64,000 bases of DNA, from NCBI GenBank assembly GCA_963971425.1, contig OZ020521.1, forward strand, positions 24,196,012 to 24,260,011. The letters run 5' to 3'. The position numbers were made by a program, and so were the translations under genes. Shown here in pieces: positions 26,641 to 64,000 of this stretch; within the stretch, counting starts at the first letter, position 1; each line of letters begins with the position of its first letter. Source of the DNA: Bryoerythrophyllum caledonicum (Eukaryota; Streptophyta; Bryopsida; Pottiales; Pottiaceae). Under the pieces are notes generated by a model. That model made no database searches. It was not told the DNA's origin and worked only from the letters and a program-made list of their open reading frames with translations.

Positions 26641-26759
26641 TGCGAAGGAGATCCTCCTTTAGTTCAGTGAGTTCTAGAGGATCCTTGGGGACAAGGGGAG
26701 AGATATCCTTGGCCATAGAAGTGGTTGGGTTGCTTGAGTTCATATTGCAAGGACTAGTC

Positions 26760-27365
26760 TAAGCACATGAGGAAGAGGGACCCTCGTGTGAACACCCCTA
26801 GAACCGAGGTGACTCTCTCTCTCGCAAGACTTCCCCCTTCGTCCAGGCTGGAGCTTCCTACTCGACCCCGACTATTTCCTCCCCTGGACACTAAGACTGC
26901 CAACATGGCAACAACACCGTCCCAGTACGAGGAGCACAAATACGTGAACCCGACCAGTAAGGTGAACAACAAGAGGAACAAAAACAGCCAAGGGAGCACA
27001 AGATGAACACGACGAGAAGGTGAACAGCAAGTGGAACACGATGAGCAAGGTGAACAGCAAGAGGAACACGACAAGCAAGGTGAACAACAAGAAGAACACG
27101 ATGAGCAAGGTGAACAATAAGAGAAACCCGACGAGCAAGATCACCTCCGATGCTGCCTGCTCGGTCCGGGCTAGAGCTCCTTGCTTGGTCCGGGCTGGAG
27201 ATAAGGTGAGCACGAGGAACGTCACCAGGATCACCAAGAGATCAAAATGAAGAAGATGAGGACAATCAAGATGACCGCCAGGGCGAGCAAGATCTCCTCC
27301 GATGCTGCCTGCTCGGTCCGGGCTAGAGCTTCCTGCTCGCTTGAGGTTCGTGATTTGCGGCTCAG
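26760..27365. repeat. 30-bp minisatellite and 150-bp duplication upstream of G1
   Basis: From about 27005 to 27140 a 30-bp unit (gaacacgatgagcaaggtga then acagcaagag) repeats 3-4 times and reads EHDEQGEQQE in one plus frame, with one copy holding a TAA. Two near-identical blocks with gatgctgcctgctcggtcc (27149 and 27300) mark a duplication of about 150 bp. Position and composition parallel the 27-bp array upstream of G3, but the strand carrying the Glu/Gln reading is opposite. Confidence 0.75.
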
Positions 27366-28612
27366 CCCTAGTAATGCAATTTGTAGAGTAAGTATTCCTC
27401 CGGATAGCACTTAGTTGGAGCTAAATGTGTCCGAAATGATCGCTCTAAATTCGTTCCCACAGAGATCTATTGTTTCTTCTTTGAATGATAAGTAAACTAT
27501 CTGCTATCCTTCTACCACGCACCAGTTAGCATTCCTATTCTACGCCTTATCTATTCATCCGGATCCTTCCGGGCGTCCGATGTGGTTTCCTACTAACTTC
27601 CGGATCCTTCCAACTTCCAGAAGGTCAGATGGAGTTTTTCTTCCGGAGTTTTTAAGCGAGTGGCCGGGTACCACTGATCCTATTTTGTATAAGTGGCTGG
27701 ATTCCCCACTGCCTCGTAATTTTAAGTGGCTAGACACCCACTGCCCCGAAACTTATAGTGGTTGGACACCCACTCTCCCTATATTGCTAATTGGTTGTTG
27801 GTTTGTTGTTTCCGGATTCACTCTCTCACATCATCCGGAAGGCCTTCCGGATACGGTCACTCAGAGGCTCACCCGGACTACAATGACATTCTGGTTGATG
27901 ATCAGTGGGTCGGTGAGGTGTGAAGGGTAGATCTGCATTTGGACTTCCTTCTAGACATACACCACAAGCTTTTCCATCTATCGTAAGGGGAAATTCCAAT
28001 CGCAACCAGAATCCGGGTTCACACGGATTCTCCGTGCCCTAGGAGCTACTAGGTCCACCACCTAAAGTACCCTCCCTCCCCCTCCAGGCTCCTTCCGGTC
28101 ACCAAGGATCGTCAGACTCTATCTAACCTCTCCTTCAGCTGTTCCGGGCGCTCTCCCACAGCAAGTCCCAACCGGTTAGACTAGATGCTTATCCGTGAAC
28201 CACTTCAGTTTCAACAACTATTCCACTAATCATCAACCACAATGGGCCCTATCCTTCATTCACAAAACAATTCACAAAACAATACACCATCAACATAATT
28301 TCAAGAAGAGAAAATATACTAACAGAAAATATCATTTGGGAGGAAGAAGGAAAAAAGACCCTAAGCCGGCTAAGACTCAGGTATTAAGAAACCGCTACGA
28401 CTGATCTAAAAAAAATGGATCTAAGAAGCTAAAAATCCGGAAAATCCTATCCTAAAAGTGAAAGGGATCTTATCCCTACAAATCCGGAATTCAAACTCAG
28501 ATCCAAAAATTTTGGATCTGAGATCCGTTTTTTTCGGATCTAACTCAAAATTAAAAGCAGGGTTTTCTTTAGTCTACCGCATGATAGCCGGGTGCAAAAT
28601 TGAGCCCCATCG
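27366..28612 (-). repeat. 3' flank of gag-like element G2, CCGGA-rich
   Basis: Noncoding sequence downstream of G2 on the minus strand is rich in CCGGAT/ATCCGG words and holds the aagtattc ... attcgttcccacagag block at about 27391-27465 shared with the flanks of G1. It ends at 28612 with the 'ccgggtgcaaaattgagccc' block, which is also found in the 3' region of the gypsy element. No LTR pair could be delimited. Confidence 0.4.
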
Positions 28613-30901
28613 TTAATCGCTATCATAGTTTAGTCCTAAAGATTCTAATCTAAGAGTTACCTGATTCCGCCTCCTACTGCTAGGGCGTGAAGGGATAACC
28701 TCTGCTGGAGCGGTGCCGGCCTCGGTTTGCGCCGGAATGGCTGCTGGTGGCTCCGGTAAGGAGGTCGGTGTCGGCATCCCTGTTCCGGATGGTGCATCCG
28801 GGTCCTCTGTTGTCACCGTCCAGCCGGATGGTGCGTCTGCTCGGTCTTCGACGTCCGGAAGGTCCCGGAAGCTACCACTGGGGCTGACCACCATGGGAGT
28901 TGCTGCCGAGCTTCCGGGTAAAGGGTCCGTCACGGGTGGCCCCGGAGATGGAGACTCTGAGGGAAGTCGGAAGGGCACAGGGGGTACTGTATGACTCCCT
29001 AGCACCTATTCCCACTTCTGCATACTCTCCGTGCTTGGAAAGGCCACCCCATTCCACCTCATATGAGAGCTGAAATCCGGCGTTCCCACGAGGTCATTGA
29101 ACTCTCCGGTGAGGGACTTTGGCATTCCAGCTGCAGGTCTGGGTGAAGAGCCGGCCGGAGGTTGGGGCGGGGAAGCAGCTGCCGGTTTGGATGGGGATCC
29201 GGACGGACCTGCAGCGGCTCCGGATGGTCCTGCGGTGGTTTCGGATGGATCAGCAGTGGTTCCGGATGGATCAGCCCTGTTTGGAGCAGGAAGTGTCGGA
29301 AATGGAGGTGGAGGTTCTAGTACTGTTGAGGTGGCCGCCACGAGATCCCTCGCTAGCTCCTGCATCTTGGTCCATGTACTCTCCATTTTCCGACTGTGAT
29401 CTACTAAGAACCGGATAATCTGTCCCCTGTTGAGCTTCTCATTCTTCTCCAAGCTCTCCGTGTAGAGCAACGCCCGGTTGACCATATCCAGCGGAAAGTC
29501 CAACGCCGTGCGGATATCGGTCAATGTCTGAGAGGCTGCCCGGACCTTCGTTTCTGCCACCACTCGGGCATGCTGTGCCGCATCCCGTGCAGCTTCCGCC
29601 TGCCAGACCTGACCCTAGAGCCGGGTGTTGATCTTGGTTATTGTGGCGTTCTCCTGCTCCAGTCTCGTGACGGAACTGTGCTTCTCCTTCATCTCTCTGA
29701 GCTGGGCGATGAGGTGAGTGGTGTCCTCCAGTCCTACTCCTTCTAGGACGGCCATGATCATGGCGTGCCTCTCCCGGATTTCTCCTTCCTGAATTCTGGT
29801 TCGCCAGACAATATGTCTGCAGAGCTCGTGAATGTCCATCGGGATGTCGCCAGTGATGGCTGGAACAAATTTGGGTCCTGGCTCGGATCCGGTCGTGAAT
29901 CGGTCGTCTTCCGGTGCCGTTTCCGGTGCGGTTGGTGGTGCTGCGGTTGGGCTCTGAGCCGGAATTGTTGACAAAGGCCGGCATGCTCCGGGGGTTTCCG
30001 GAGTCCTCTGCACCGAACGACTCCGCTTCCGGTTCGGTCTTCGAAGTATGAGGGGGGATGACAACTTCTCCGTGTCAGAGTCCGTCGATTCTTCCGGTTC
30101 CTCATCCGTTTCCATCCCTCCGTATGACTAGATGGTGAGCAGGCTATCGTACTCGGCATGCTCCTCCGTACTCAACATCTTCTGCTTTGCGTACATGTGA
30201 GCCAGGTAGGTGGAAAGGGGGGATGGGGTTTTCCGGGCTTTCGGCAGGTTCTTCACCACCCTATCAATCTGCTTGTCCATGATGGTCGCCCAGTCGACGG
30301 ATAGCTTTCCTCTCATCGAGCCCAGGATCAGTGTAGCTAGCTTGGCCACTATCCGTTTAGGCTTCTCGGGATGGAAAATGGAGTTGAAGAATGCCATTAC
30401 TAACCTGGCGTTCGGGTCGGTGAGGTCGCTGAGGACATAACCGTCTTTAGGGTTAGCCTTCGCACGGAACTCGCCCTTCAGGATGGCGTCGTCACGCTCC
30501 GCCACCTTGATCGTCCCTGCCCGGAACTCGTAGGTGTCTCTCCAGAGTGCCGTGGTCCAGACCTCCAGATGCGCCCTGACCTTCTGTGCGTACTGGCTTG
30601 GTGGCTCTCCCAAGAGCTTCGCCATCATCATTTCGCTCTGGAAGGCCCATGGTGCTCCTAAAAGACCTTCACAACCCATGATCTCGAGGAAGCTCTCTAA
30701 AACCCAACAGGTCTTGACCGGCTTCGGAATCTCCGGAGTCACCTTCTGCAGCACCAGGGTTTCGGTGGCCGGAGCCTTGCCCTTCTTGCCCGCCATCCGT
30801 GCCCACCTCTCCGTGAACTTGCGCCTCGCAATGGTGTCCAAAAATCCTGCACGCACTGACCTCACCAAGTCTCTCGTGCTAACCTAATTCTGCGCTACCA
30901 T
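28613..30901 (-). pseudogene. Gag-like transposon protein, best copy (family G, copy G2), four in-frame TAG
   Basis: From an ATG at 30901 to a TAA at 28613-28615, one minus-strand frame of about 763 codons is interrupted only by TAG, at 30884-30886, 30128-30130, 29615-29617 and 29006-29008. The N-terminal part has LEVWTTALWRDTYEFRAG, GYVLSDLTDPNARLVMAFF and IFHPEKPKRIVAKLATL. This pattern loosely recalls the plant transposon-protein domain with 'RA.LL..I..G..I..G.II' spacing. Next come an acidic Ser/Pro linker, a coiled-coil part (IAQLREMKEKHSSVTRLEQE), a helical part (ALDFPLDMVNRALLYTESL) and a Pro/Ala/Ser-rich tail. No nucleic-acid-binding knuckle or enzyme motif is seen. It is probably the structural protein of a non-autonomous LTR-type element. 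Each TAG could derive from CAG by one transition. Confidence 0.6.
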
Positions 30902-34943: not shown

Positions 34944-36462
34944 TATCACGGGACATGGCGTCAAAGGCCTCTCCGCATCGTAGTGTTTTAGTGTAGATTA
35001 GTTTGTTACTAATCTACAAGTTTAAGGACGTCCGGCAACGCACTGCATTCATTTATGAATGATTTTTATCCACTTAGAATTGTGTTTGTTTGCGTATAGC
35101 GCCGCACACGTCCTTGACTTGAAGTCTTTGTCAAGTTAAGCTTTGTGAGTGAGTTTGAGAGTATTTACTGATACCTTTGCTTGTAAGTGATTGTTTATCA
35201 CTAATAAAGGCTCCGCATTCTATTATACTATGTGCACTAATTGATTCTCTCTTTGTGAACTACAACACGCTTGACTACTCTTGTATTTCACTAGTTATTT
35301 ACTTGACAAAGATCCTCCCACGTTCTTCTCTTTAGTTCTAGAATTTGAGAAAATTTGAGAAAATTTGGGTGACTTTAGAAAAATTCAGGTTGCTTTAATT
35401 CATGTTGTAGAATGCGTCAAGATGGAGCCAACTCAATAAACGGCGCCTAAATCGGACAATTTATGAGCAAGATGTAAGGAGCGCAGGAATTGGAAGAAGA
35501 AGAATAACTACTCAATCTGATTCTATAATTTTTCATCCACTATGCAGTTATCATCCACGACAAAATTTCATCCGTGGTCAATTTTCATCCTTTTTTTGGC
35601 AAATTCATCTGTTGCGAGCAGTTTTCATCCATAATAGACGAAGCTGTAATTTTGTGCAAAATTCACTTAGCTTTAAGCTAATATCTCCCAAAAAATAAAT
35701 TGAATTCCAACTTTGGATTTGAGCTCTCCAAAGAGGTTTCTACCTAGAAGATAGGGAAAAATTGAGTTTGTTTAAAACCTTATTTTTGTCGGTTGTTAAT
35801 AAATAAAAATAAAATATTACTATTTAAACTTTGGAGGTATGTAACTAGGGCAATTTAACTCGGTTTTGAGTGAAATTTGCACCAATATTTAGAGCATTTC
35901 ACCGTTAATTGAATTTTGATATTGGATTGGTGATAAGCGCGTTTGTCACCCAATGTGTGATTTTCATTGAAGGGACTTGTATTTATAAACGCCGCAATTG
36001 CATTAGCTCACTACCTCTTTAGTTTAAGACTTTGGGAAGGACACCTTTGGGTGTTTCCTTTGTATTGTTGTAGGTTTTTGCAACTAGTGACGATCCACTA
36101 TAGGCCTGTGCCAGTAGTTTTGGTCATTTTTTTTTATGGCTTTTATATTCTTGGAGGAGAAGATCCGATTTTGATTTCCGGATGCTTCTGCGGTACCTCC
36201 TGTGTGTTGCCGGCTTGTTGTTGGTGTTTTCCGATGGCCCCATTTTCTATTGTCCCAGATTGTGATAGGGTACCGTAGGCGTGAAGTCATATTAATGGCC
36301 AGCAAGACCTTTCTATGTGGAAGGTTAAAGTTGGACATGTGCTAGCCGAAGGTGATGACGAGTGAACCACAAAGTTTGGTGGTTTTGCAGGTGCAGGTTG
36401 TTCGTTTGTATCCTTACCTTTTAGATAATTCTCATAGATAGAACCCAAGGTGATTTTTGATT
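34944..36462 (+). repeat. 5' LTR and leader of the decayed gypsy element
   Basis: It aligns with 55372-56418. Shared words include tagattagtttgttactaat, agcgccgcacacgtccttga and several TTTCATCC motifs (about 35534-35620). In the decayed copy aataaagg near 35210 could be a polyadenylation signal. The LTR/leader border and primer-binding site are not certain in either copy. Confidence 0.6.
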
Positions 36463-39400
36463 ATGGTGAATTCCCGGAGTCGGTTATCACCAATCCAATA
36501 TGACCACCTCACCAAATCACTCGGAGAGTGTTTCCACCACAGAATTTCGGCCAGGGTTGGATACCGACGAGGCTTTTGAGCCTGTTTTGGCGTTGGATAC
36601 CAACCGTAGGCTTCAGATCTATGACGTAAGCACGTTTAACGACATAGAGGACAATCTCTATTGTATCCTACGAGACAGATCCTTGAGATGGGTTGAAGGC
36701 ATGTCTCTACTCGATTGGCCGCTCTGGTTTCAGACCTAGATGAAGGAAAGCGTCACCGAACACCGTCGTTTACCGGCTAGTATACGTTTGAGCTCTTGGC
36801 AAAGCATTTGGAGCTAGAGGCTCTGCAAACATAAGGGATGTAGACTACGCAACACGAGGCATAGGTTCGTCTGGTTGAGGAGTACTAGCGCCAACCTGTG
36901 GAATTGGTGACTCCACTCAAGGAGAGTGCGGTTGCCCAACTCTCGGCTTCCGTTGAGGAGCCCAAGGTGGAAGAAATTTTCCTCGGTGAGGACTTGAGAG
37001 GCAAGGGTGTTGCCATTGTGGGCGAACGAGCTGGCATAGGGGCCATGTCCCTTTTAGCCGTAGCCACACATGCAGCATTGGTGGCGGTTGGCAGCCGGCT
37101 AGCCTTTGATCCACCAACGCAATTTATGGCGCATCTGGAGGTGGAGTTTGGGGGATTCAGGCGTGATCAAATGTAGCGCATTTAGGATCTCTGCCAAAAT
37201 AAGGAGGATATTCCATGGAATCCATGCACTATGTATATCTGATTGGCACGGTTGTCAGTGGAGGCCGGTGATGTGTTCAAGGAGCGCCAACTGGTGAAGA
37301 TCTTTATCTCCAAGCTTGATAAGCGGATGGTGAAGTTGATTAGACGACATCTTCTTTTATGGTATCACGGATATGCGACTTTGTGAACCAAGAAGGAGGC
37401 CCTTATTAGACAGTTAGATGTAAACGGCCGTTGTTAGACAGTTAGATGAATGCTGCCACTTCTGCTAGCGCTCCCACTCCGATCCTGGTTCCACCGGTTG
37501 CTTTGACTCATAGAGATGTTGCACACACCTTGGCGTATAAGGTGTTGCAGTCGACGGTATCTACGGGTGTGGATTTTCTGACTCCAAATTTTCAACCATC
37601 AAATGAATTCCACTTGGCGGATAGTATGCTAGAGGGCAAGGTGCCCTTGCCAACGTTAAAGGTGTCGTAGGCAATGACAACTCCATCCTCCAAGGAGGAT
37701 TTGGTGGCAATGCGGGCCAAGTTGGGGGCGGAGACTATTTCCGCGTTTCAGGCCAATGCCACGTCGACACCTATGGAGCAGTCCTTCAGGGATCAGTCCT
37801 TGATATTTGAAGTGGCTTATTTGTTTGACATTGCGGCTCAATCAGCACGAGAGCGACGAGTGTGCGTCCAAGGATGGTATGTTTGGTGAATGACGGAGAA
37901 TCATGATGGTTGACCGCACAGACAACAACTTCATTCGAGCTACCCCTCTACATGTTATAATGGACTTTAGAGCTCAGCTAGTGATGATTGACAAACTACT
38001 AGCCCAAGATTTGGGTCTAGGTCCTGGGACCTTGAACATTTACGATCGTTACATCGATGACTGGCAGTCTGGCACAGAGAAGGCCATGGGATATCCTCGA
38101 CATTTGTTGCGGTTGATGTTTGACGTGAGTTCTAGTCCACTGTCCTGCCATGTATCTCCCCAGTGCGTTGTGACTGGTGCCACCAACTACAATATTTTGG
38201 TGGATCAGCAAGCACTTTATCTACTCCATTTTGAGGTGAATAACTAGACAAAGGAGGCCTGAATTATGCCTCCGTGGTCACCGAGTGATGGCAAAAAGGA
38301 GCTCATTCCAGTTGTCATTGCAGCTAGCGCGGTGGCTTCTATGGCGGATGCTATGTTTGGGTGTAGTGCCTTGGCATCCAATTTCCCATGTGGTTCTACG
38401 CTTTTGGAAAAGACATGCTTTTATGTTGGTGGTAGCGGAATCATGTCAGTATAGATCAGTGGAGATTCATGCACGTCATTGCAAGGATCAAATTCTTCCA
38501 ATGGGGACTCAGTTGGAGCTCACACGGACTCTTGGACTTTGCTATTGGCTAGTACTATTGAGTGGCGACCACCACATGTGGGTACTACCCTCGTGGAGAT
38601 ATTTTTTGGTATTGTTATGAGGCTCGCGGCTGTGTTCGAGGCCGGGCTCAAGGTACAGTGATACATCCACGTTGATAGTAGCTTTGCAGCCAACCGTGTC
38701 GTTTATCATCACATTCAACTTCTTCTAACAATGTATCCGGAGCAATTCCCACCTTTTGCGATTTGAGGATGTTTTGACACGTTGCCACATGATGTGATGT
38801 TGATCAATGAGGATGATTTGCGCCGGTTAGTTCACGTGGACTTGGTGACTATCAGATGGCCTTGCCAAGGCCACTCACGGGTGAGGAGTGGATGTGGCTT
38901 GGATGATCCACGGTTGAGGCTCTTTGCGGATTTGCTCAGACTCATCCAATGTTGGATTACCCACCAATCATGGCCACCGAGGTACATTTTTAAGAATGTA
39001 CCTTTATTGAGGAATACATGGATGACTGTGCGTGAGTATAGAGCATACATCCATCACCTTCTTGGTTCCCCGATGTTTGTAGATGATGCGCTGTTGGGAT
39101 CTTACGCCCATCCTCCACGTTGGATTTGGACCAGCATGGCATCATTGGCAACGCTCATCTCTGCACTTGCTCAAGTGCAACGGCTCGTGCGTCGTGAGGT
39201 CGACTACAACTTGAATGACGACCATGTTTCCACGGTGGTTATCAAGGATGATGGGTCACCATTGGCCATCAAAACCCGCTTTGGTTTCACTCGGGGGACG
39301 TTTTCCACGTTCATGTGCTATCCAGAGTCTTTTGCTTGCAGGACACCCGGTCTAGGCATGGTTTGGGATTCATCTTCCCTAACTTACGACGAGCTTTTGG

Positions 39401-39832
39401 GCAATGAGAGGGAGCGACCAATGGATTTTTTGACAGGCAGTGCCGCCGCACTAGATCTTTTAGACGGTTAGTGTTGTTACTTGTTGGATAAAGCTATTGA
39501 CTTCAACGCTCTAGTTTTTCTTTGTCGCCTCTCAGTCGTCATTTAGTGCAATTTGCATGACCATCCACGTGTGGTGGATCCAGACTCAGACTGACAAAGG
39601 GCAGCGGTACCACATCTTACAAGGATCGAGGAAGCAAAGCTGATTTTTTGTTTCAAGAGGCACGTAGCTGAGGAGCTTTGTGCTCAGCATGTCTTTGCAG
39701 CCTTGGCTGAGGACTTTGGACCAAAAGATACCGGAGATATCTTTTTCCGATTTTATCTCCACGACAGGGGATTTTCTATGGATCCTGGAGTAAGGAGTCT
39801 AGAGGCATGAATGCCTCTCTACTACTAAGTAG
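36463..39832 (+). pseudogene. Decayed gag-protease-DNA methyltransferase frame
   Basis: It starts at the ATG aligned with the better copy and ends at the conserved TAG (39830-39832). Stops appear at many positions, e.g. a Trp codon changed to TAG near 36737 and two TAG codons near 37173-37185. The zinc-knuckle region is deleted near 37400. The protease DSGA motif reads DFRA. The longest remaining frame, 38782-39471, covers the methyltransferase. PCQ is kept (WPCQGHSRVRSG), but motif I reads IFFGIV instead of LFAGIG and the ENV motif reads KNV. All catalytic functions are therefore lost. Confidence 0.8.
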
Positions 39833-40739
39833 CAATCACCGATCGTGTCGGTTTGCGGTGGCTCTCTTACAGTGGAGAAGAAGACGACGAAGTTTGATGA
39901 TTGGCCTTTGGATCAGTGCTCACATCTTATTCGTGTTGAGGCACGAAGGATACGAGCGTTTATACGTTCATATTGTAGCTCTTTTTCCTTTAGCTTCCAT
40001 GATTTGGAGAGCTACAAAGGCAAGCTCATTTACATTCAATTGTAGGATGACCACCCGATCTTCAAAGGACCATACAAGCTCGATTTTTCAAAGAAAAGTT
40101 GGGATTCAGACTCATTGTTTGGAGTTGTTGGCCGCTAGCTTCCAACAACTCCAAACGGCAAGTACGTTTGTTGGCTGAGCTCTCCAACGGCAAGTACGTT
40201 TGTGCACGATTATGCCATCAAATGAAAACATCTTTTGCAACTGGACGAAGAACCGGATGTGTGGGGATTATAGGCCGGTCCATCGCTAGACCAAGTTAGT
40301 CTGGTATCCCATGCCCACGCCGGAGGAGTTGTTTCATGCGGTGGGCTAACCTAGAGTATTTAGTTCTTTGGATTTGTGGACTAGATACCACCAGTTGCCA
40401 TTGATGATGGATGACCGGGTGAAGATTGCATTAATGGGCATTGATTAGGATAGAAGAGAGCAACTCTACCATTCAAAGTTTCTTCCATTTGGCATGAAGA
40501 ATGCACTGGCTAAATTTTAAAGGGTGATAGATCGGGTGTTGGCCGGTTAACCGTTTGCCCAATGCTACATTGATGATGTTATCATTTTTAGAAGCAGCCG
40601 ACAAGAGCTTGTGAAGCATCTTTAAGCGGTATTCAAGAGGTTACTCGAGTGGGGATTATGCTTGCACCATGGCAAGTGCAAGTTCTTCTACGATCAATTG
40701 CCATATTTGGGATATATGATTGTTCCAAGGGGTCTTGGT
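39833..40739 (+). pseudogene. Decayed, truncated reverse transcriptase
   Basis: The sequence directly after the TAG begins CAATCA, as in the better copy. RT blocks remain readable: MCGDYRPV, YPMPTPEELFHAVG, KFLPFGMKNA and the catalytic-loop block YIDDVIIF near 40570. They are broken by stops. At 40585-40589 this copy has five T where the better copy has four, giving the uninterrupted frame. Homology ends at about 40739. Confidence 0.8.
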
Positions 40740-47679: not shown

Positions 47680-47879
47680 NNNNNNNNNNNNNNNNNNNNN
47701 NNNNNNNNNNNNNNNNNNNNNNNNNNNNNNNNNNNNNNNNNNNNNNNNNNNNNNNNNNNNNNNNNNNNNNNNNNNNNNNNNNNNNNNNNNNNNNNNNNNN
47801 NNNNNNNNNNNNNNNNNNNNNNNNNNNNNNNNNNNNNNNNNNNNNNNNNNNNNNNNNNNNNNNNNNNNNNNNNNNNNNN
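47680..47879. other. Assembly gap, 200 N
   Basis: Exactly 200 N, a conventional placeholder, so the true distance is unknown. The left edge is GC-rich (tccgccttttatgccgaacg, then ggcggacg) and the right edge precedes a GC-rich minisatellite. A hard-to-assemble repeat is likely. Any open frame across it is meaningless. Confidence 0.98.
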
Positions 47880-52589: not shown

Positions 52590-53805
52590 GAGAGTACCCT
52601 CTCGTTTCCGAGAGGGTACTCACTATAGCTACAGGTCAAGAATCGTGTTGAAACTCTATCAATGAGGATGCATTCAGGGCAAGCCATGCCTTGAATGCAA
52701 CAACATTGACAGTTTCTCCAGGCCCTTGCTTTGGAGCTACACTACATATCCTCTCGGAAACGAGAGGGTACTCAAGTAAGATCCTGGGCAATTATCCCGA
52801 AAACAACTCTGACGATGGAGTTGCATTCAGGGCAAGCCATGCCCTGAATGCAACTTTTTGAGGTGGCATTCGGGGTGTTTGCCAAAAATTCAACTCCATG
52901 GAGTTGCATCGAGGGCAAGCCATGCCCCGGATGCAAGTCCATGAAATTGCATTCAGGGCAAGTCATGCCCTGAATGCAACTTCTTGGAGTGGCATTCGGG
53001 GTGTTTGCCAAACATGCAACACCATGGAGTTGCATCCAGGGCAAGCCATGCCCTGGATGCAAGTCCATGAAGTTGCATCCAGGGCAAGCCATGCCCTGGA
53101 TGCAAGTCCATGAAGTTGCATTTAGGGCAAGCCATGCCCTGAATGCAACTTCTTGAAGTAGCATTCAGGGTGTTTGCCAAATATGCAACACCATGGAGTT
53201 GCATCCAGGGCAAGCCATGCCCTGGATGCAAGTCCATGAAGTTGCATTCAGGGCAAGCCATGCCCTGAATGCAACTTCTTGGAGTGGCATTCGGGGTGTT
53301 TGCAAAAAATGCAACACCATGGAGTTGCATCCAGGGCAAGCGCCCCGAATGCACTCCGTCAATGAAGTTGCATCCAGGGCAAGCCATGCCCTGGATGCAA
53401 TTCCATGGACTTGCATCCAGGGCATGAGTTGCCCTGGATGCAACTCCATGGAATTTCTTTCACGGCGCTTGCCCTGGAACTTCCATGAGTTCCATGGCAA
53501 GCACTCTTGAAGCAACTCCGTTAATGGAGTTGCATTCAGGGAAAGGCATGCCCTGGATGCAACTCCACTGACGGAGTGCATTCGGGGCGCTTGCCTTGGA
53601 ACTTCGATGAGTTCCACGGCAAGCGGATTAAAAGCAACTCCGTCAATGGAGTTGCATTCAAGGCAAGCCATGCCCTGGATGCAACTCCATTGACGGAGTT
53701 GCTTGTAGAGCACTTGTTCTGGAGCTTCAAAGTGTATCTTCTCGGAAACGAGAAGGTACTCATCGAACTCCACGGCAAGCGCCCTAGATGCATCTCCAAA
53801 GACGG
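52590..53805. repeat. Dense array of about 14 imperfect hairpins
   Basis: The palindromic unit TTGCATYCAGGGCAAGCC, then ATGCCCTGRATGCAA, recurs about fourteen times, e.g. near 52667, 52821, 52901, 52947, 53026, 53074, 53116, 53199, 53242, 53328, 53365, 53412, 53528 and 53648. Four spacer copies of agtggcattcggggtgtttg are interleaved. Both edges carry a second hairpin, CTCTCGGAAACGAGAG and variants (52605, 52752, 53737), followed by ggtactca. Frames of 130-230 codons open through the array because the repeats lack stops. They have no domain and mirror the repeats, so no protein is called. Confidence 0.9.
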
Positions 53806-55371: not shown

Positions 55372-56418
55372 TGTCACGGGACGTGGCATCGAGGGTCTCT
55401 CCGTATCGTAGATTTTAGCGTAGATTAGTTTGTTACTAATCTACGTGTGTTTAGGGACGAACGGCGGCGCACCGTTTTCATCCGTGGATGATTTTCATCC
55501 ACTTAGGATTGTATGCGTGTGCGTATAGCGCCGCACACGTCCTTGACTTGACGTCTTTGTCAAGTCAGGCTTTGTGAGTGTGTTTAGAGAGTGATTAGTG
55601 AGTCCTTGCTTGTTAGTGATGGTTTGTCATTAGTAAAGACTCTACATTCTCTAGTTCCACTTGCACTCGTTGATTCTTCCTTCGAGGAGTGCGAGACGCT
55701 TGACTACTTGTGATTCATACATCTTTCACTTGACAAAAGACCCTCCCACGTTTCTTGCTATAGTTCTCGAATTTGACATTGAGTGATTTGAAAAAAATTG
55801 TGGGTACTTTAAATTTACGAATAGAGCGCGTGGAGACGGAGCCAACGCCACCGACCGCGCCCAAATTCGACGATTTTTGGAGAAGTTGTGGAGATTGGAA
55901 GTTGTGGAGCAAGAAGTTCTGGAGTTTCTGGAGTTTCAGCAGTTTCATCCAATTTGCGATTTCTCATCCAATATCGACGTTTCATCCACTGCGCACGACT
56001 TCATCCATTCGGGGCAGTTTTCATCCGGGTGTTGCGACTCGGAGCCATCCACTGCAGGCGTGTGCCAGTGGCTCTGACTCTTTTGTCAATTTTGCTTATA
56101 TGTTGTTGGGGGAGAGGATCCGGTTTGGATTTTCTGGATTCTTGTGCGGTACCTCCCCCATGTTGCAGGCTTGTTGCCGGTGTTTTTCGGTGGCCCCATT
56201 TCTCGTTGTCCCAGATTGTGATAGGGTATTGTAGGGGTGAAGTCGGGTTCATGGCCGGCAAGACCTTTCTATGTGGGGGGTTGTGGTTGGACCTGTGCTA
56301 GCCGGAGGTAATGACCGGTGAACCACAAAGTTTGGTGATTTTGCAGGTGCAGGTTGCCCGTTCGTACCCTTACCTTTTAGATAGTACCCGTAGATAGGTC
56401 CCGAGGTGGTTGTTGTTT
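55372..56418 (+). repeat. 5' LTR and leader of the methyltransferase gypsy
   Basis: It is conserved with 34944-36462. Notable are tagattagtttgttactaat, agcgccgcacacgtccttga and at least five TTTCATCC/TTCATCCA motifs (about 55486-56030), including a 'ttttcatccgtggatgatttt' palindromic pair. The LTR end and the primer-binding site could not be set with confidence. No clear match to the initiator-Met tRNA 3' end was found. The second half of this stretch reads open in two frames but matches no protein. Confidence 0.6.
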
Positions 56419-59400
56419 ATGGTGAGTACCCGGAGTCGGTATTACCGCTCCCCCTCACCAGACCACTCGGAGAGTGCTTCCACCACAAATTTTGGGCCAG
56501 AGTCGGATACCGACGAGCCTTTTGAGCCTGTTTCGGCGTTGGATACCGATCGTAGGCTTCGGGTCTGGGGCGTGGGCACGTTTGACGACATGGAGGACGA
56601 TCTCCGTCATGTCGTGCGAGACAGGTTCTCGGGACGGGCTGGGGGCATCTCCCTGCCCGATTGGCGGCTCCGATTCCAAACCTGGATGAAGGAGAAGCGC
56701 CAGCGGACGCCGTCGTTTAACGACTGGTATGCGTTCGAGCTTTTGCCCCAGCATTTGGAGCTAGAAGCGCTCCAATCGTACGGGAAGTGGACTACGCAGC
56801 ACGAGGCACAGTTACGTCCGGTTGAGGAGTACTGGCGCGAGCGTGTGGAGTTGGTGACGGCGCTCAAGGAGAGTGCAGTTGCCCAACTGCCGACTTCCAC
56901 CAAGGAGCCTAAGGTGGAAGAGAGTCTCTTCGGGGAGGACTCCAGGGGCAAGGGTGTTGCCATTGTGGGCGAACGGGTTGGCATGGGGGCCATGTCCCGT
57001 TTGGCCGTTGCCACACGTGCGGCATTGATGGCGGTTGGCGATCCGCCTGCCTTTGATCCTCTAGCGCAGTTCATGGCGCATTCAGAGGTGGAGTACGGGG
57101 GCTTCAGGCGTGATCAGATGCAACGCATCCAGGATTTCCGCCGGGAGAAAGAGGATACCCCACGCACCATGTATACCCGGTTGGCACGGTTGTCAGCTGA
57201 GGCTGGTGATGTGTTCACGGAGCGCCAACTGGTGAAGAGCTTCATCTCCAAGTTGGACAAGAGGATGGTGGAATTGATTAGTCCACATCTTCTTTTTCGG
57301 TATCATGGCAACGCCACTTTGGCTCAGGCGTTCGCCGAGGTGGAAGCGCTCGATAGAGCACTGGGCATGAGCGAGGCCACTGATTTAGTGACGTCGCTAT
57401 TAGAGGCTCCCAAGCCCAAGAAGCTTGCCACCGCCACTGGTAGCTTGGCGGAGGCACAACCTGAAAAGGTTGTGCATTGTTGGGCTTGTGGGGAGGCTGG
57501 TCACACCAAGGGGGACCCCAACTGTTCCAAGAAGAAGGGGGCAGGGGCGGTGAAGGCCAAGCCCAAGACTGAGGCAGCCAAGCCTGCAGAGAAGGCTGGA
57601 GGTAAGGGGAACAAGCTTGTGACATGTTCTCACTGTGGCAAGACTGGCCACACTGATGAGAACTGCTTTTCTCTTCATCCAGAGAAGCGCCCAGGGTCTT
57701 CAGCTGTTGGATCGGATGCAATGAAGACACTGCAGGCTGAACTGGCGGAGTTGGAAAACCAGATGAGTGCGATGGCTTCTTTGGGGCAAGTGGCAGAGAC
57801 ACGGCCTCCATCGAGGAATCAGGGCTCATCTTCAGCCCTAGACCGCTACTTGTATGGCGCTTCAAGGGAGGTGGTGGCAGTAGTGGCCACTCGTGCTCAG
57901 ACTATTGCACAAGTAGTGGCACCTTCATCCTCTGTGCCGATTAGTAGTGGCCGTCCACGCCACACGGGTTTGCCGGACCACATTGGTCAGTCCCGGCTAC
58001 CACTTTCTTTTGGCATCGCGGATGCGGCTATTTCTACTCCCTCTCCCACTCCGCCCCCGGTCCCACCGCTTTCTTCCACTCATGGGGATGCCGCACACAC
58101 CTTGGCGTATAAGGTGTTGCAGTTGCCCGTGTTTGCCGGTGTGGATTTTCTGACACCGGATTTTCGACCATCTGGTGTATTCCACTTCGCAGGTAGTATG
58201 TTGGAGGGCAAGGTGCCCATGCCTTCATTGGAGGTGTCGCAGGCGGTGACGGCTCCACCCACCGAGGAGGATTTGGTGGCATTGCGGGCCAAGTTGGCGG
58301 CGGAGGCTATTTCCGTGTTTGAGGCCAATGCCACTTCCACACCTACAGAGCAGTCCTCCGGGGATCAGTCATTGATCTCTGGAGTGGCTTATTTATCTGA
58401 CATTGCAGCCCGGTCGGCACGAGAGCGCCGTAGTGTGCGTCCAGGGGTTGTACGTTTGGTGAATGACGACGGAGTCATGGTGGTTAGCCGTACGGACGGC
58501 AACCCCACTCGAGCTACCCCCTTGCGTGTTATGTTGGACTCTGGAGCTCAGCCAGTGATGATTGGCAAGCAGCTAGCCCTGGATTTGGGTCTAGGTGCTT
58601 CGGACCTCGAGCCTTGCCCATTTATGATTGTTACATCGGTTGGAGGCACGGAGAAGGCCATGGGGTACACCCGACATCCGTTACAGTTGATGTTCGGTGT
58701 TGGATCTGGTCCATTGTTCTCCCACGTATCCCTTCACTGTGCTGTGACTGGTGCCACCAACTATGACATTCTGGTGGGTCAGCAAGCACTTTATCCTCTC
58801 GGTTTTGGAGTGGATAATTGGACGGAGGAGGCCTGGATAAGGCCTGGGTGGTCTGCCGGTGATGGCAGAAAGGAGCTCATTCCGGTTGTCTTCGCAGCTA
58901 GCGCGGTGACTTCCACGGCGGACGCTATGTTTAGGTGCAGTGCGTTGGCTTCTGATTTGCCATGTGGTTCTACGCTTTTGGAGGAGACATATGCTTTTAT
59001 GTCGGGGGTAGCGGAATCAGGGGAGTACATACCACTACAGATCCCTGCACGTCATTGCAAGGATCCAGTTCTGCCTTGGGGAACTCAGTTGGAGCTTACG
59101 CGTCGGAGTCGGGAGATTGTGGATGCTTTGGATGCTCCACATCTCTTAGTGGACACTTCTACTCCGTTGTTGGCTCGTACAATTCAGTGGCGACCACCAG
59201 ATGAGGGTATTACCCTCGTGGAGCTATTTGCCGGTATCGGTACGGGGCTCGCGGCTGTGTTAGAAGCTGGGCTCAAGGTACGCCGCTACATTCACGTCGA
59301 TAGTGGCTTTGCAGCCAATCGAGTTGCTCACCACCACATTCAGCGTCTTCTGGCGTTGTACCCGGAGCAGTTACCACCTTCTGCCATTCGGGGATGTTTT

Positions 59401-60459
59401 GGCAAGCTGCCACGTGATGTGACGTTGATCAGTGAGGATGATCTGCGCCGGTTAGGTCACGTGCACTTAGTGATTGCCGGATGGCCTTGCCAAGGCCATT
59501 CACGGGCGGGCAGTGGGCGTGGCTTAGATGATCCACGGTCGGGTCTCTTTGTAGATTTGCTCAGGCTCATCCAGTGGTGGATTACCCACCAATCGACCCC
59601 ACCGAGGTACATTTTTGAGAATGTACCTCCATTGGAGGATACCCGGACAAAGGTGCGTGAGGATGGAACCTACATCCATCACCTGCTTGGTCCCCCTACG
59701 TTTGTTGATGCCGCGGCATTGGGCTCTTATGCCCATCGGCCACGTTGGATTTGGACCAACATGGCATCAGCGACCACACTCACCTCTGCACTTGCTTTAG
59801 TGCAACGGCCCGTGCGCTGCGAGGTCGATGACATCTTGGACGACCACCCTGTTTCCACGGAGGTCACCAAGGATGATGAGCCACCATTGGCCATGGTTAA
59901 CCGGGTTGGTTTCACTCGAGGGGCATTTCCCACGTTGATGTGCTATCCGGCGTCATTTGCCTTTAGGACACGCGGTCCAGGCATGGTTTGGGATTCTTCT
60001 TCCCAAACTTTCGAGGAGCCTTCTGCCGATGAGAGGGAGCGGGCGATGGGCTTTTTGACAGGCACCACCGCCGCACCGGATATCTCTGAGGGCCAACGCC
60101 GTTATTTGTTGGGTCAAGCCATTGCCCTCAACACCCTTGTTTGGATATGTGGCCTCTGTTTCGTCGCTCAACGCCGTTCGAGTGACCATCCACGCGTGCT
60201 GGGGGCAGACTCTGATGGTCAGGGGGCAGCGGTGCCACATCTCACAGAGATCGAGGAAGCGGAGTTGCTTTTTCGTTTGAAGAGGCATGCAGCTGAAGAG
60301 CTTCGTGCTCAGCGTGTCTTTGCAGCCTTGGCAGAGGACTTTGGCCGTGAGGATGCTCGGGATATCTTTTCGCAGTTTTATCATCACGACACGGGATTTT
60401 CTATAGATCCTGTGAGTGAGGGGTGTGGGGGCATTAATGCCCTCTCTGCTACCAAGTAG
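56419..60459 (+). CDS. Gag - aspartic protease - C5 cytosine DNA methyltransferase polyprotein
   Basis: It is 1346 codons from ATG 56419 to TAG 60457-60459; upstream TTG codons are not preferred. Residues about 80-340 form a gag-type helical region. Zinc knuckles are C354-x2-C357-x4-H362-x6-C369 and C403-x2-C406-x4-H411-x4-C416. The protease motif is D707-S-G-A. The methyltransferase, about 930-1250, has motif I LFAGIGTGL (936-944), catalytic PCQ with C1024, ENV at 1067-1069 and HRPRWIWTN (R1107, R1109). Near its end come ERERAMGFLT (1205) and RRYLLGQAI (1227). Order is canonical, not permuted as in DRM. PCQ is DNMT1/bacterial-like, whereas the RPRWIWTN block and the C-terminus recall DNMT3, so no subfamily is assigned. 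A charged tail of about 95 residues precedes the TAG. Confidence 0.9.
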   Translation: MVSTRSRYYRSPSPDHSESASTTNFGPESDTDEPFEPVSALDTDRRLRVWGVGTFDDMEDDLRHVVRDRFSGRAGGISLPDWRLRFQTWMKEKRQRTPSFNDWYAFELLPQHLELEALQSYGKWTTQHEAQLRPVEEYWRERVELVTALKESAVAQLPTSTKEPKVEESLFGEDSRGKGVAIVGERVGMGAMSRLAVATRAALMAVGDPPAFDPLAQFMAHSEVEYGGFRRDQMQRIQDFRREKEDTPRTMYTRLARLSAEAGDVFTERQLVKSFISKLDKRMVELISPHLLFRYHGNATLAQAFAEVEALDRALGMSEATDLVTSLLEAPKPKKLATATGSLAEAQPEKVVHCWACGEAGHTKGDPNCSKKKGAGAVKAKPKTEAAKPAEKAGGKGNKLVTCSHCGKTGHTDENCFSLHPEKRPGSSAVGSDAMKTLQAELAELENQMSAMASLGQVAETRPPSRNQGSSSALDRYLYGASREVVAVVATRAQTIAQVVAPSSSVPISSGRPRHTGLPDHIGQSRLPLSFGIADAAISTPSPTPPPVPPLSSTHGDAAHTLAYKVLQLPVFAGVDFLTPDFRPSGVFHFAGSMLEGKVPMPSLEVSQAVTAPPTEEDLVALRAKLAAEAISVFEANATSTPTEQSSGDQSLISGVAYLSDIAARSARERRSVRPGVVRLVNDDGVMVVSRTDGNPTRATPLRVMLDSGAQPVMIGKQLALDLGLGASDLEPCPFMIVTSVGGTEKAMGYTRHPLQLMFGVGSGPLFSHVSLHCAVTGATNYDILVGQQALYPLGFGVDNWTEEAWIRPGWSAGDGRKELIPVVFAASAVTSTADAMFRCSALASDLPCGSTLLEETYAFMSGVAESGEYIPLQIPARHCKDPVLPWGTQLELTRRSREIVDALDAPHLLVDTSTPLLARTIQWRPPDEGITLVELFAGIGTGLAAVLEAGLKVRRYIHVDSGFAANRVAHHHIQRLLALYPEQLPPSAIRGCFGKLPRDVTLISEDDLRRLGHVHLVIAGWPCQGHSRAGSGRGLDDPRSGLFVDLLRLIQWWITHQSTPPRYIFENVPPLEDTRTKVREDGTYIHHLLGPPTFVDAAALGSYAHRPRWIWTNMASATTLTSALALVQRPVRCEVDDILDDHPVSTEVTKDDEPPLAMVNRVGFTRGAFPTLMCYPASFAFRTRGPGMVWDSSSQTFEEPSADERERAMGFLTGTTAAPDISEGQRRYLLGQAIALNTLVWICGLCFVAQRRSSDHPRVLGADSDGQGAAVPHLTEIEEAELLFRLKRHAAEELRAQRVFAALAEDFGREDARDIFSQFYHHDTGFSIDPVSEGCGGINALSATK

Positions 60460-60465
60460 CAATCA
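60457..60465 (+). promoter_or_regulatory. Leaky stop: TAG CAA TCA read-through context
   Basis: The stop between the methyltransferase and RT frames is followed in the same frame by CAATCA. This fits the UAG CAR YYA context that permits read-through in tobamoviruses and has been reported for the plant element SIRE1. The downstream frame stays open into RT. The decayed relative at 39830-39838 keeps TAG CAATCA exactly although the sequence around it has diverged. Read-through would make the longer Gag-to-integrase product at low level. Confidence 0.8.
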
Positions 60466-63400
60466 CCGGCCGTGCCGGTACGCGGTGAGTCTTCTACGGT
60501 GGAGAAGGAGACCACGGAGTTTGATGATTGGCCTTTGGATTTGGGGCCACATCTTACTGGTGCCGAGGCACGAAGGGTACGAGCGTTTATACGTTCGTAT
60601 CGTAGTTGTTTTGCCTTTAGTCTCCATGATTTGGAGGGCTATAGAGGCAAACCAATTCACATTCAGTTGGAGGATGACCATCCGATCTTCCGACGACCGT
60701 ACAAGCTCAGTCTCTCTGAGAAAGTTGGGGTTCAAACTCGTTGTCAGGAGTTGTTGGACGCCAGCTTGATTGAGCTCTCTAATGGCGAGTACGCTTGTGC
60801 CACGGTGATGCCATCGAAGAAGGACATCTTTGGTAACTGGACGGAGAAGCGGATGTGTGGGGATTATAGGCCGGTCAATCGTAAGACCAAGTCGGATCGG
60901 TATCCCATGCCCACGCCAGAGGAGTTGTTTGATGCGGTGGGACACGCCAGAGTATTTAGTACTCTGGATTTGCGGTCCGGTTACCACCAGTTACCATTGA
61001 TGGTGGAAGACCGGGTGAAGACCGCGTTCTGGGGAGTTGATCTGAATGGGAGAGATCAGCTCTACCATTGGAAGTTTCTTCCATTTGGCCTCAAGAACGC
61101 ACCCGCTGAGTTTCAGAGGGTGATGGACCGGGTGTTGACCGGTTTACCGTTTGCCCGATGCTACATTGATGATGTTATCATTTTAGTAGCAGCCCACAGG
61201 AGCATGTGAGGCATCTTCAGGCGGTGTTTGAGAGGTTACGACAGTGGGGATTGCGCTTGCACCATGGCAAGTGCAAGTTCTTTCACGACCGGTTACTATA
61301 TTTGGGGCATATGATTGTTCCAGGGGGTCTTGGCGTACAACAGGCCAAGGTCGATGCGTTGCAGAAGATTCCAGCCCCAATCGACGTGTCACGGCTTCGA
61401 GCTTTTCTTGGCTTGGCGAATTACTATCGCCGGTTTGTCAAGAACTTTAGCTTGATTGCTAAGCCTTTGACTATTCTCACGGGGAAGGATCAGCCATGGA
61501 CTTGGGGACGGGAGCAACAACAGGCGTTTGCTACTTTGAAGCTGAAGCTCGGTTCAGCGCCTGTACTACGGCGTCCAGATGCTACACGGCCTTTCCACTT
61601 GCACACAGATTGGAGTGCAGTAGGATTGGGAGCCGTGTTGACTCAAAAGGATGATGAGGGACGGGAGTACGTTGTGGCGTTTGCTTCTAGGAGCAACAAC
61701 AACACGGAGTCCAACTATTCGTCCTATGAGGGGGAGGCCTTGGCCGCGGTTTGGGCCATAGCTCATTTTAGGCCCTACTTGTATGGGCAACGTTTTACTT
61801 TGGTGACCGACCACCAGCCTTTGAAGTGGCTCATGGAGTCTGACAAGCTTACTGGCAAGCTTGCCAGGTGGGCTTTGTTGCTCCAGGAGTATGATTTTGA
61901 GGTTGTACACCGGGCGGGCATCACAAACTTGGATGCGGATGGTCTATCTCGCAATCCAAGTCCATCGGAAGAGGATTTGACTGGTGCCAGGTGGCATGGG
62001 GATTGTGACAGAGAGTCAGTCTCGGGGTGGCATGCAGCAGCCTACCTCACATTGATGTCTGGATCCACATCGACGTTGCCTGATATGGCAGCGGATGAGG
62101 AACCGGACAAGGCCCAGGTTGTTAGCGACGTGTGGGAAGACGTTCCAGTCTTGCACAAGCTGCAACATGGCACACTTCCGCCCGCTCTTTCGGCCATGGA
62201 GCGCGATCGAGTTGGACACCGGATAGCGAGGTTCCGTTGGGAGAACGGCCTTCTATTTCGGTTGTGGCCGGATGGAACTAGGCGCATAATTCCCAGACCG
62301 GATCAGAGGGCTTCGTTGGTACGGCAGGTATACGAAGACCTTGGTCATTTTGGCGTCCGGCGGACTCATTCGATGTTGCGCAGTCAATATTGGTGGACCG
62401 GCATGTATCAACACGTTGCCACGTACGTTTCACGGTGTGAAGTCTGTGATCGGGTCAGATCCAGCTTCAACACCTTGTCACCACAGTTGCAGCCTTTGCC
62501 CATCATGGGTTTGGGCTACCGTTGGTCTCTGGATTTTGCCGGGCCACTTGTTGTCACCCCACGTGGAACGAAGTACGTGTTGGTGATGGTGGAGCACTTC
62601 AGCAAGTGGATTGAGCTTGTGGCACTACCACAGAACTCCTCGGAATTGGCGGCCATGGCATTCCTTGACCGGGTGCTCGCTCGTTTTGGAGCCCCAGCTG
62701 AGGTGTTGACTGACCAAGGGCGTGAGTTCCTTGGTGCTTTCGAGGCTTTGTGCACCAAGGCTTTGATTGACCACCGTACGACTTCTAGAGATCATCCGGA
62801 AGCGGACGGTTTGGCGGAGCGTGTGGTTCAGACCGTCAAGCGTGGACTACGGAAGTATGGATTACTTCAGGGTGGCCACCGTGATTGGGATCTGATGATA
62901 CCATGGATCGCCATGGGATACCGGTTTAGCCGGCAGGCCTCTTTGGCCGCTTTCAGTCCGTATCAGTTGTTGTACGGACGGGAGCCGATTCTACCTAGTT
63001 CTGTACGGGAGAAGTTGGCCCCAGTTGTGGACTTGGATGATCCAGAGGTCTGGATCCAGTGTCTGCGTGACCGAGCGGAGTTCTTCAAGCGGGCCATGCC
63101 AATGGCCATGGAGAATTTATCCATCGCTCAGCACCGCGACACATTACGGTACGCTCGCATTCGCAGCGGCGCTTATCGACCTCAGTTGCGGCGTTTCTCC
63201 ACTGGAGATTACGTTTATTTGCAACGTGAGGCGCCTACGACGTTAGACGTCAAGGCCGGACGCACCATTCTTCGTGTGAAGGATGTGTTGCCCAGTGGCA
63301 TCTTGTTGCTGGAAGGCAAAGATGGCCGGGAGTGTCGGGAGCACTCCAAGAACTGCGCGCCCTGCCATTTGCCCATTGATGGCTCCGTGCATCCTGAGTT

Positions 63401-63602
63401 GGCCGTTGTGCCACAGGGTCTTCCGTGTTTTGTGTGTGGTGAGAAGAAGGGTGCGGCTACTATGTTGCTTTGTGACCATTGCCAGCGTGGTTGGCATATG
63501 GCTTGCTTGACGCCGCCTCTCTCTACTCTACCGTCCGGGGATTGGACTTGCCCTCGTTGTCGGAGGTCTTCGAGTCACGTTTCACCCGATGAAACGGCTT
63601 GA
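60460..63602 (+). CDS. RT - RNase H - integrase - PHD finger (pol), with one frameshift
   Basis: It continues the gag frame after TAG. RT has MCGDYRPVNR, FSTLDLRSGYHQLPL, FLPFGLKNAPAEF and YIDD (61162-61173). At 61181-61184 the frame breaks and resumes one frame over (from HLQAVFERLRQWG) to TGA 63600-63602. RNase H carries D (TDWSAVGLGAV), E (YEGEALAAVWA), D (TDHQPLKW) and D (NLDADGLSR). Integrase has the HHCC zinc part (HFGVRRTH ... CEVCDRV) and catalytic D, D, E in LDFAGPL, LTDQGREF and HPEADGLAERV. After a basic linker with FSTGDYVYL comes a PHD finger (63424-63570): CFVC ... LLCDHC ... WHMAC ... WTCPRC, a full C4HC3 set. There is no chromodomain. As written it would give a truncated RT. 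Confidence 0.9.
61181..61184 (+). other. One-base deletion in a T run breaking the RT frame
   Basis: The run here is four T; the decayed relative has five at the homologous place (40585-40589) and keeps the RT frame. It lies three codons after YIDD. The upstream frame ends at TGA 61207-61209. It is either a real mutation of this copy or a homopolymer error in the assembly. Programmed frameshifting is less likely because the relative lacks it. Confidence 0.85.
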
Positions 63603-64000
63603 ATTCCTCATAGACTTGTCATTGTGTGGTGCGTTGCCATCCAGTTGGAGTTCCTGGTTTCGGTTCAGGGATAGGCAACGTGGAGATTGACCAAGGGATT
63701 GGCAATAAAATTGCCTAAGGCGATTAAAGATGGGGCTCACATTGCACCCGGCCTACCATCTCTTTGTTACTTCTTCATATGCTTATTGATTCGATGACGG
63801 CGACATCTTTGGCTGGATGCGTACAGTTGTTGCAGCGACATCACCGTGGCGTTTAGTCTTATTAGCGTTGTTTGGTCCTAGCTGGATAGAGGGTCTCTTT
63901 ATCCGCTAGGGGGGGCACTTGAGGGTGTATTACGTATACTTGTTTTAGTGTATGTTTTTCGTTTATTTGATGTTGGTTAGGACTCTTGATCTGTTGGGGT
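63603..64000 (+). other. 3' untranslated region of the gypsy element
   Basis: Noncoding sequence runs from the pol stop to the window edge. At about 63719-63757 is a block (gcgattaaagatggggctca, then ttgcacccggcctaccat) that also lies in reverse orientation at the end of gag-like element G2 (28575-28616). A purine run AGGGGGGG (63908-63915) is a polypurine-tract candidate. However, the sequence after it does not match the 5' LTR start TGTCACGGG, so the right LTR must begin past 64000. Confidence 0.6.

Follow-up and report, generated by a model that had tools for sequence, protein, structure and literature searches.

DNMT3-type methyltransferases have been published in gypsy and DIRS retrotransposons (PMC5890265), and a survey of 2025 repeats the concept of retroelement DNMT3 (PMC12344493). 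For SymbioDIRS-Dnmt3 of dinoflagellates, de Mendoza et al. described an A-coding-B-A-B repeat layout and demonstrated CG methylation in yeast, and KnitGypsy-Dnmt3 of the alga Klebsormidium nitens combines DIRS-like repeats with gypsy domains according to a figure legend (PMC5890265). In PAT elements, the characteristic repeats are arranged as A1-B1-A2-B2 (PMC4157794). We have analysed a stretch of 64,000 nucleotides from Bryoerythrophyllum caledonicum (contig OZ020521.1, positions 24,196,012 to 24,260,011 of the forward strand), hereafter the window, in which an initial annotation made from the letters alone had placed a C5 cytosine methyltransferase inside a Ty3/gypsy polyprotein. The element is a retrotransposon with Ty3/gypsy-type proteins, which extends from 55372 to beyond the window end, and a complete DNMT3-like C5 cytosine methyltransferase was confirmed at 59203-60162. 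The enzyme is under purifying selection in its genomic family while the window copy is decaying, and we tentatively read the family as self-methylating retrotransposons.

The methyltransferase

The domain matched PF00145 above its cut-off (E 1.7e-10, 41.3 bits versus 22) over residues 941-1084 of the first open reading frame (ORF1); the NCBIfam dcm model also matched ORF1, under its cut-off (E 2.8e-9). Against the PDB, phmmer recovered DNMT3C (3.8e-7), DNMT3B (1.1e-6) and DNMT3A (4.4e-6). The profile search proposed with the annotation was significant, with DNMT3A nearest (E 3.5e-27), followed by 4onj, which we take to be a DRM (3e-13), HaeIII (2.6e-10), DRM2 (3e-10) and HhaI (7.3e-9). As annotated, the motifs ELFAGIG, GWPCQGHS, FENV, AHRPRW and two C-terminal ones stand in canonical linear order; we take them to be motifs I, IV, VI and VIII, then IX and X. 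A DRM enzyme, which needs a permuted order, was rejected on this linear arrangement. The fold search returned no DRM, CMT or DNMT5 title among the 50 matches listed, a result which excludes none of them. The closest profile and fold are those of DNMT3 and the motifs are unpermuted, but PCQ stands in place of PCN in all 19 aligned genomic copies (see below), and the enzyme is therefore named DNMT3-like.

The same profiles bear on the proposal that the enzyme is an RNA methyltransferase acting on packaged genomic RNA or primer tRNA, as DNMT2 does on tRNA. An enzyme made at the Gag level would be packaged with RNA, and RNA methylation was raised by de Mendoza et al. for the LINE (long interspersed nuclear element) type (PMC5890265). 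DNMT2 (2.1e-7) and a tRNA C38 methyltransferase (1.3e-7), however, lay far behind the DNMT3 profile, and we consider an RNA target improbable.

Features of the element and of a second copy in the window are the following.

55372..55733, + strand: left terminal repeat A1, 362 bp, starting with TGTC; direct repeat with C9:24260037-24260397
56398..60459, + strand: ORF1, encoding gag - protease - methyltransferase and terminated by TAG; Met at 56419 as likely start
57478..57666, + strand: two gag zinc knuckles, from the translation; 57478-57525 with irregular spacing, 57625-57666 CX2CX4HX4C
58516..58659, + strand: stretch of aspartic protease with the DSGA active site at 58537
59203..60162, + strand: C5 cytosine methyltransferase domain, DNMT3-like (PF00145)
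60457..60465, + strand: leaky-stop context UAG CAA UCA between ORF1 and ORF2, kept in copies
60465..60479, + strand: putative small hairpin downstream of the UAG (ACCGGC CGT GCCGGT), of a stability within that of shuffles
60460..63602, + strand: ORF2, with reverse transcriptase (RT) in 60460-61209 and, in 61173-63602, the remainder of RT followed by RNase H, integrase and PHD
62298..62798, + strand: integrase, H2C2 zinc-binding part (PF17921, E 2.4e-16) and rve (DDE) core (PF00665, E 3.2e-14)
63426..63560, + strand: PHD finger at the integrase C-terminus (PF00628, E 1.4e-10)
63908..63915, + strand: polypurine run (AGGGGGGG) directly ahead of B1
63923..64000, + strand: repeat B1, about 101 bp in full and truncated at the window end; A2 and B2 lie beyond it
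34946..40738, + strand: second copy of the family, decayed, in three matching stretches of 75-80% DNA identity

ORF1 is open over 1353 aa from stop to stop and, as the annotation had it, one frame holds the zinc knuckles, the DSGA protease and the methyltransferase. The related proteins P0002 and P0006 begin with MVSTRS, and their Met aligns to 56419. Pfam matches were weak for the zinc knuckles (zf-CCHC, E 0.096) and under the cut-off for the protease (PF13650, E 0.0015, 19.6 bits versus 24.3). The enzyme does lie between protease and RT, but the frame closes at the TAG of 60457-60459, and the RT (PF00078, E 4.1e-17) follows behind this stop in the frame of ORF1. Its pairing with a PHD finger also held, with the finger sitting behind the integrase, past the UAG. 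The best solved relatives of this finger are CHD4, PHF12, KDM5B and KDM5A, and its sequence resembles the PHDs of KDM5 PHD1, CHD4, BHC80, UHRF1 and ATXR5, which read unmodified H3K4. The order protease - RT - RNase H - integrase is that of Ty3/gypsy elements, and copies of the family have the DDE integrase, the short target duplication and the TG...CA ends of that group.

The window copy is damaged, with an RT frameshifted near 61190 and two private changes in the methyltransferase. The decayed copy lacks this frameshift, and its methyltransferase frame is partly open (38767-39471).

Genomic copies and selection

In the genome of 437 Mb (894 contigs), 88 scored matches to the methyltransferase query were obtained among 2545 first-look candidates; they are 81-100% identical, with the exact 1353-aa frame free of inner stops in 9 of them; the RT query gave 150 among 4196 candidates, and the 1047-aa frame was free of inner stops in 13. 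A chance ORF or an assembly chimera was ruled out by the 88 scored copies and by homologues in other data sets, and chance also by the ratio of non-synonymous to synonymous changes (dN/dS) of 0.19 given below. The annotation would have been contradicted by other copies lacking the domain. Eight RT-found copies were picked from at least 12 missing from the methyltransferase match list, and the upstream DNA of all eight carried it, whole in five (each time divided between two frames) and partial in three, so that copies without methyltransferase were rejected as far as tested.

The 19 copies on which selection was analysed comprise that of the window and 18 of the other 19 top matches; the C202 copy (L004), left out, gave no alignment, probably because the script had not reversed it. 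Pooled pairwise dN/dS was 0.19 for the methyltransferase (jackknife error 0.03), 0.18 for RT (0.03) and 0.14 for RNase H-integrase (0.02), and 0.38 for gag (0.04), 0.35-0.36 for the protease (0.12), 0.28-0.29 for the methyltransferase C-terminal tail (0.06) and 0.50 for the PHD finger, the errors being rough since the pairs have common ancestry. When the window copy is compared with the decayed one, the values of 0.44 (methyltransferase) and 0.39 (RT) are those expected if the differences partly arose after insertion. No copy of the 19 had a gap in the methyltransferase and three had an inner stop. Residues F944, C1031, Q1032, E1074, N1075, R1114 and R1116 (ORF1 numbering) were identical in 19/19, and with them the catalytic Cys, ENV and RxR. 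The annotation's statement that all key residues are kept was nearly right; Ala1243 (motif X) and His1023 occur in the window copy alone, both positions being Asp in the other 18. The enzyme of the family is thus under selection, and the window copy is decaying. The invariant catalytic residues and the purifying selection also make it plausible that the element would methylate its own or host DNA.

In the neighbour G000:C9:24279229-24281550 (- strand), about 22 kb away, the RT query is matched at 100% up to its last residue, so that the RT frameshift is probably common to both copies. The DNA of its methyltransferase is 92% identical to the window copy, so the two halves differ in history, a pattern which may reflect recombination or gene conversion between adjacent copies.

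Relatives and layouts

The first protein search (8000 candidates scored) recovered 44 proteins, including Marchantia polymorpha (P0017, P0019 and P0020 among others), Closterium and many further contigs; the second, with a 14-row profile, gave 650 at E 1e-5 or better and the third, which extended from the methyltransferase into pol, 121 at E 1e-20 or better; 120 matches were listed for each of these latter two. A scan of IMG/VR showed no relatives. The six nearest homologues (P0001-P0006) are 83-88% identical over 99-100% of the 341-aa region. PCQ, an active site which the annotation had put forward as possibly new, turned out to be the commonest form, beside ECQ in 7 of the 44 proteins (P0021, P0025, P0033, P0038, P0039, P0040, P0041) and in further rows of the wider search, and SCQ in P0036. 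To our knowledge, Pro ahead of the catalytic Cys is near-universal in C5 methyltransferases. These ECQ and SCQ forms could speak for a domain that is kept in Gag without catalysis, as a structural element or for binding nucleic acids; the catalytic Cys, however, is present in 42/42 relative rows with a residue at that position, and with the invariance of Cys, ENV and RxR in the genomic copies a non-catalytic role appears highly improbable.

Among 77 fetched proteins with the enzyme and RT or integrase, the enzyme stands ahead of RT in 18 and behind RNase H in 44, the remaining 15 being cut or scrambled. In this second layout it lies between RNase H and integrase. Quick trees were built from 53 methyltransferase rows (48 of them family rows chosen among those fetched) and 35 integrase rows. 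Both divide by layout. Proteins of the second layout are set apart by a single branch in each tree (support 93 and 80); the window layout requires two changes in both trees, with P0043 unplaced, as also P0199 in the methyltransferase tree. The family methyltransferases stand apart from DNMT3A and four bacterial-looking rows with support 93, over a thin outgroup of one partial DNMT3A row and these four others. We read the trees as suggesting one old capture, then relocation within the polyprotein, the rival account being two separate captures. Five gypsy-like rows without methyltransferase were distant in the integrase tree, in a sample drawn by methyltransferase and RT words and not as a survey. 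P0166 and P0198, pol pieces near P0021 without methyltransferase, were not placed in this tree, and P0167 was dropped as short.

Several relatives are of separate interest. P0190 holds a methyltransferase, a PHD finger and a chromodomain in a single polyprotein. The EukProt gene model P0094 (392 aa) has a methyltransferase and a PHD finger and no RT, and may be a decayed element or a host-adopted gene. P0046, a retrotransposon methyltransferase labelled as a Candidatus Obscuribacterales metagenome-assembled genome, is 76% identical to that of the window and is probably eukaryotic contamination. The gypsy-like polyproteins P0236 (PF08719, E 4.6e-47, ahead of RT) and P0238 (precomputed Pfam) carry a NADAR domain and, by profile, no methyltransferase.

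A probable leaky stop between ORF1 and ORF2

ORF1 ends with AAG-TAG-CAA-TCA-CCG in 19 of the 20 copies examined, the twentieth (L004) being unaligned, and the decayed copy retains identical letters around the stop despite about 22% divergence between the two window copies. When the stop codon was left free in the search pattern, TAG occupied 95 of 100 listed sites (148 in the genome), the other five being CAG, GAG, TAA, AAA and TTG, and the backward control pattern had no site. By eye, ORF1 of P0001-P0006, from other data sets, ends at the aligned place. The CAR YYA immediately 3' of UAG is reported to be essential for readthrough of the tobacco mosaic virus stop (PMC2754532). CAATCA matches this motif; were all bases equally frequent, such a match would arise by chance in about 1 of 512 cases. 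The first 116 codons of ORF2 contain no ATG, and its first Met (codon 117) lies 11 residues before the Pfam RT match. The conserved UAG-CAA-UCA and the lack of an early ATG suggest that gag-protease-methyltransferase is probably the main product and pol a readthrough product.

Alternatively, pol may come from re-initiation or a separate RNA, in which case the argument from stoichiometry fails. The in-frame Met at codon 117 precedes the RT match and the hairpin is unexceptional, even if its pairing is preserved by the differences between the two window copies. The shared frame, the 116 codons without Met and the retention of UAG-CAR-YYA by the decayed copy, which is about 78% identical, argue for readthrough, and we hold re-initiation or a separate RNA to be quite improbable.

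Repeats, ends and methylation marks

A2 lies at 64026-64386 in window numbering and begins 26 bp past the window end. The layout is A1 - coding - B1 - A2 - B2, with B (about 101 bp) on both sides of A2 in 18 of 19 stretches; the pair was seen directly in the window copy and 12 others in one comparison, and L036 was unresolved by the script. At the B1-A2 joint, 17 of these 18 stretches read ACGACAGCTGTCAC and L030 reads TGTTAC; the joint GACAGCTGTC is a perfect 10-bp palindrome, which resembles a circle junction. A1 is followed by CAAAGACC (CAAAAGACC in the window copy). No tRNA primer site (TGG) was seen by eye behind A1, and a tRNA scan of the window found no tRNA. A standard element with two long terminal repeats (LTRs) was ruled out by the B-A-B right end. 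Because of A1 on the left, B1-A2-B2 on the right and the lack of a TGG site, the element is described as gypsy-type by its proteins and not as a standard LTR element. Both outer ends were visible in nine copies, eight of which have a perfect 4-bp duplication (ATTT, GGTT, GGAT, ATGC, AGCA, GGTG, CCAT, ACAT) around TGTC...GACA; the window copy, the ninth, has none. Divergence between A1 and A2 over the first 345 columns was 0.29-2.93% in nine copies, the window copy standing at 2.93%.

Changes found in a single copy were mostly C>T (486/776 over the 19 copies, singletons partly from coding DNA). Summed over the 19 copies, private C>T changes per 1000 sites amounted to 177 at CHG, 129 at CG and 79 at CHH (CHG versus CHH, p 7e-13; CG versus CHH, p 2e-5). 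With this excess at CHG and CG, the inserted copies look methylated in plant fashion. The signature may also be taken for an enzyme acting in trans on host chromatin, damping expression of the element itself or of the host, limiting copy-number damage or silencing competitors; the enzyme is DNMT3-like, and the benefit of such a slow-down was discussed by de Mendoza et al. (PMC5890265). Fusion to Gag and protease would, however, place the enzyme in particles and not obviously in the nucleus, and CHG above CG is explained by ordinary plant methylation, so that we regard action in trans as unlikely.

Elsewhere in the window

A tandem array at 52815-53699 has periods of 43, 122, 126, 169 and 295 bp and palindromic units (TTGCAT..AGGGCAAGCCATGCCCT..ATGCAA). 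A series of minus-strand open frames of higher GC (0.49-0.54) at 25232-30883 resembles another element. The 200 N at 47680-47879 are an assembly gap or a masked stretch.

A possible self-methylating retrotransposon

The reading we prefer, with a confidence just short of even, is that of a self-methylating retrotransposon. A DNMT3-like enzyme would have been acquired long ago by a split-repeat gypsy-type lineage and retained under purifying selection. Most ribosomes would halt at the UAG and make Gag-protease-methyltransferase, bringing the enzyme into every particle at the Gag level, while a minority would read through UAG-CAA-UCA to give RT-RNase H-integrase-PHD. The methyltransferase may then modify the double-stranded cDNA of the element in the particle or pre-integration complex. 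The integrase would insert this cDNA with the 4-bp target duplication that is observed, and the PHD finger may guide the complex to chromatin that lacks methylation at K4 of the H3 tail. A new copy already methylated would resemble resident, tolerated DNA.

Several points weigh against this reading. The C>T excess fits methylation of host type after insertion and does not identify the methylating agent. In the only published test, made in yeast, no methylation by the gypsy enzyme of Klebsormidium could be detected, a result called inconclusive by the authors (PMC5890265). Any methyltransferase-less elements of the same genome would manage without a pre-methylation step. The stability of the hairpin is within that of shuffles (z -0.56 to -1.73, four folds). 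Concerning the PHD finger, a dN/dS of 0.50 (standard error 0.21, 16 variable codons) does not demonstrate selection on it in this genome, and among relatives reaching the integrase its profile matched 2 of 7 in the window layout and 33 of 35 in the second one. In P0043, of the window layout, the PHD Pfam match was under the cut-off, and Closterium P0040 had no PHD match.

A wider version, which we find doubtful, sees a gypsy-type lineage that both writes and reads marks, a Gag-level methyltransferase pre-methylating the cDNA and an integrase PHD reading unmethylated H3K4 (H3K4me0), with such enzymes tied to split-repeat replication. The DNMT3 enzymes of SymbioDIRS, KnitGypsy and the window family and the Dam-like enzymes of DIRS would then track split repeats whatever the integrase type. 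This mode would have nuclear, possibly circular cDNA, and the joint reads like a circle junction.

Comparison with known systems

Cytosine methylation is a main host mark silencing such elements. With a methyltransferase that is carried by the element, kept under selection and probably packaged, the use of this mark by a parasite becomes testable, and the family is abundant, with young copies (A1-A2 divergence down to 0.29%) and named relatives in Marchantia and Closterium which make tests possible. It extends a phenomenon previously described in an alga and dinoflagellates, and ties the methyltransferase to a repeat layout common to DIRS elements.

Animal DNMT3A/B/C are the top profile and fold match and share the unpermuted motif order; they differ by PCN in place of PCQ and are 22-25% identical in structural alignments, and no PWWP or ADD domain was found with the window enzyme, unlike animal DNMT3. 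In Marchantia polymorpha the methyltransferase region is 41-49% identical (12 rows), and Mp_4g09160 (P0017) combines the methyltransferase with zinc knuckles and a protease motif in a single protein; these relatives are annotated merely as hypothetical or CCHC-type. In the open-access literature, which most subscription journals lie outside, no description was found of the Marchantia copies, of PHD in such elements or of the leaky stop, nor, besides PMC12344493, anything relevant on PHD with gypsy integrases or methyltransferase retrotransposons. On split direct repeats combined with gypsy, the papers listed dealt with DIRS elements or with gypsy elements in general.

PAT and DIRS elements share the A1-B1-A2-B2 layout (PMC4157794), and the DIRS group encodes a methyltransferase domain, of adenine type (PMC5890265). 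Their tyrosine recombinase and absence of target duplication differ from the DDE integrase and 4-bp duplications found here. SymbioDIRS-Dnmt3 shares the A-coding-B-A-B repeats and the position of an enzyme of DNMT3 type beside RT, and differs by a tyrosine recombinase and a DIRS-type RT (PMC5890265). The annotation was right that retrotransposons with captured DNMTs are already known, and the kind of element is not new, since the layout matches that reported for KnitGypsy-Dnmt3. Compared by description, the latter has gypsy domains, an intronless DNMT3-like enzyme, DIRS-like repeats and purifying selection (Ka/Ks <0.2 in Klebsormidium), but its enzyme is reported to lie in the Pol ORF and not in a gag-protease ORF before a UAG; the words PHD and protease are absent from the main text of that paper (PMC5890265). 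No Klebsormidium-named protein was among the matches listed in the three protein searches. New with respect to these systems are the enzyme placed before a leaky stop, the PHD finger, the relatives in Marchantia, Closterium and elsewhere, and the second layout, in which the enzyme stands between RNase H and integrase.

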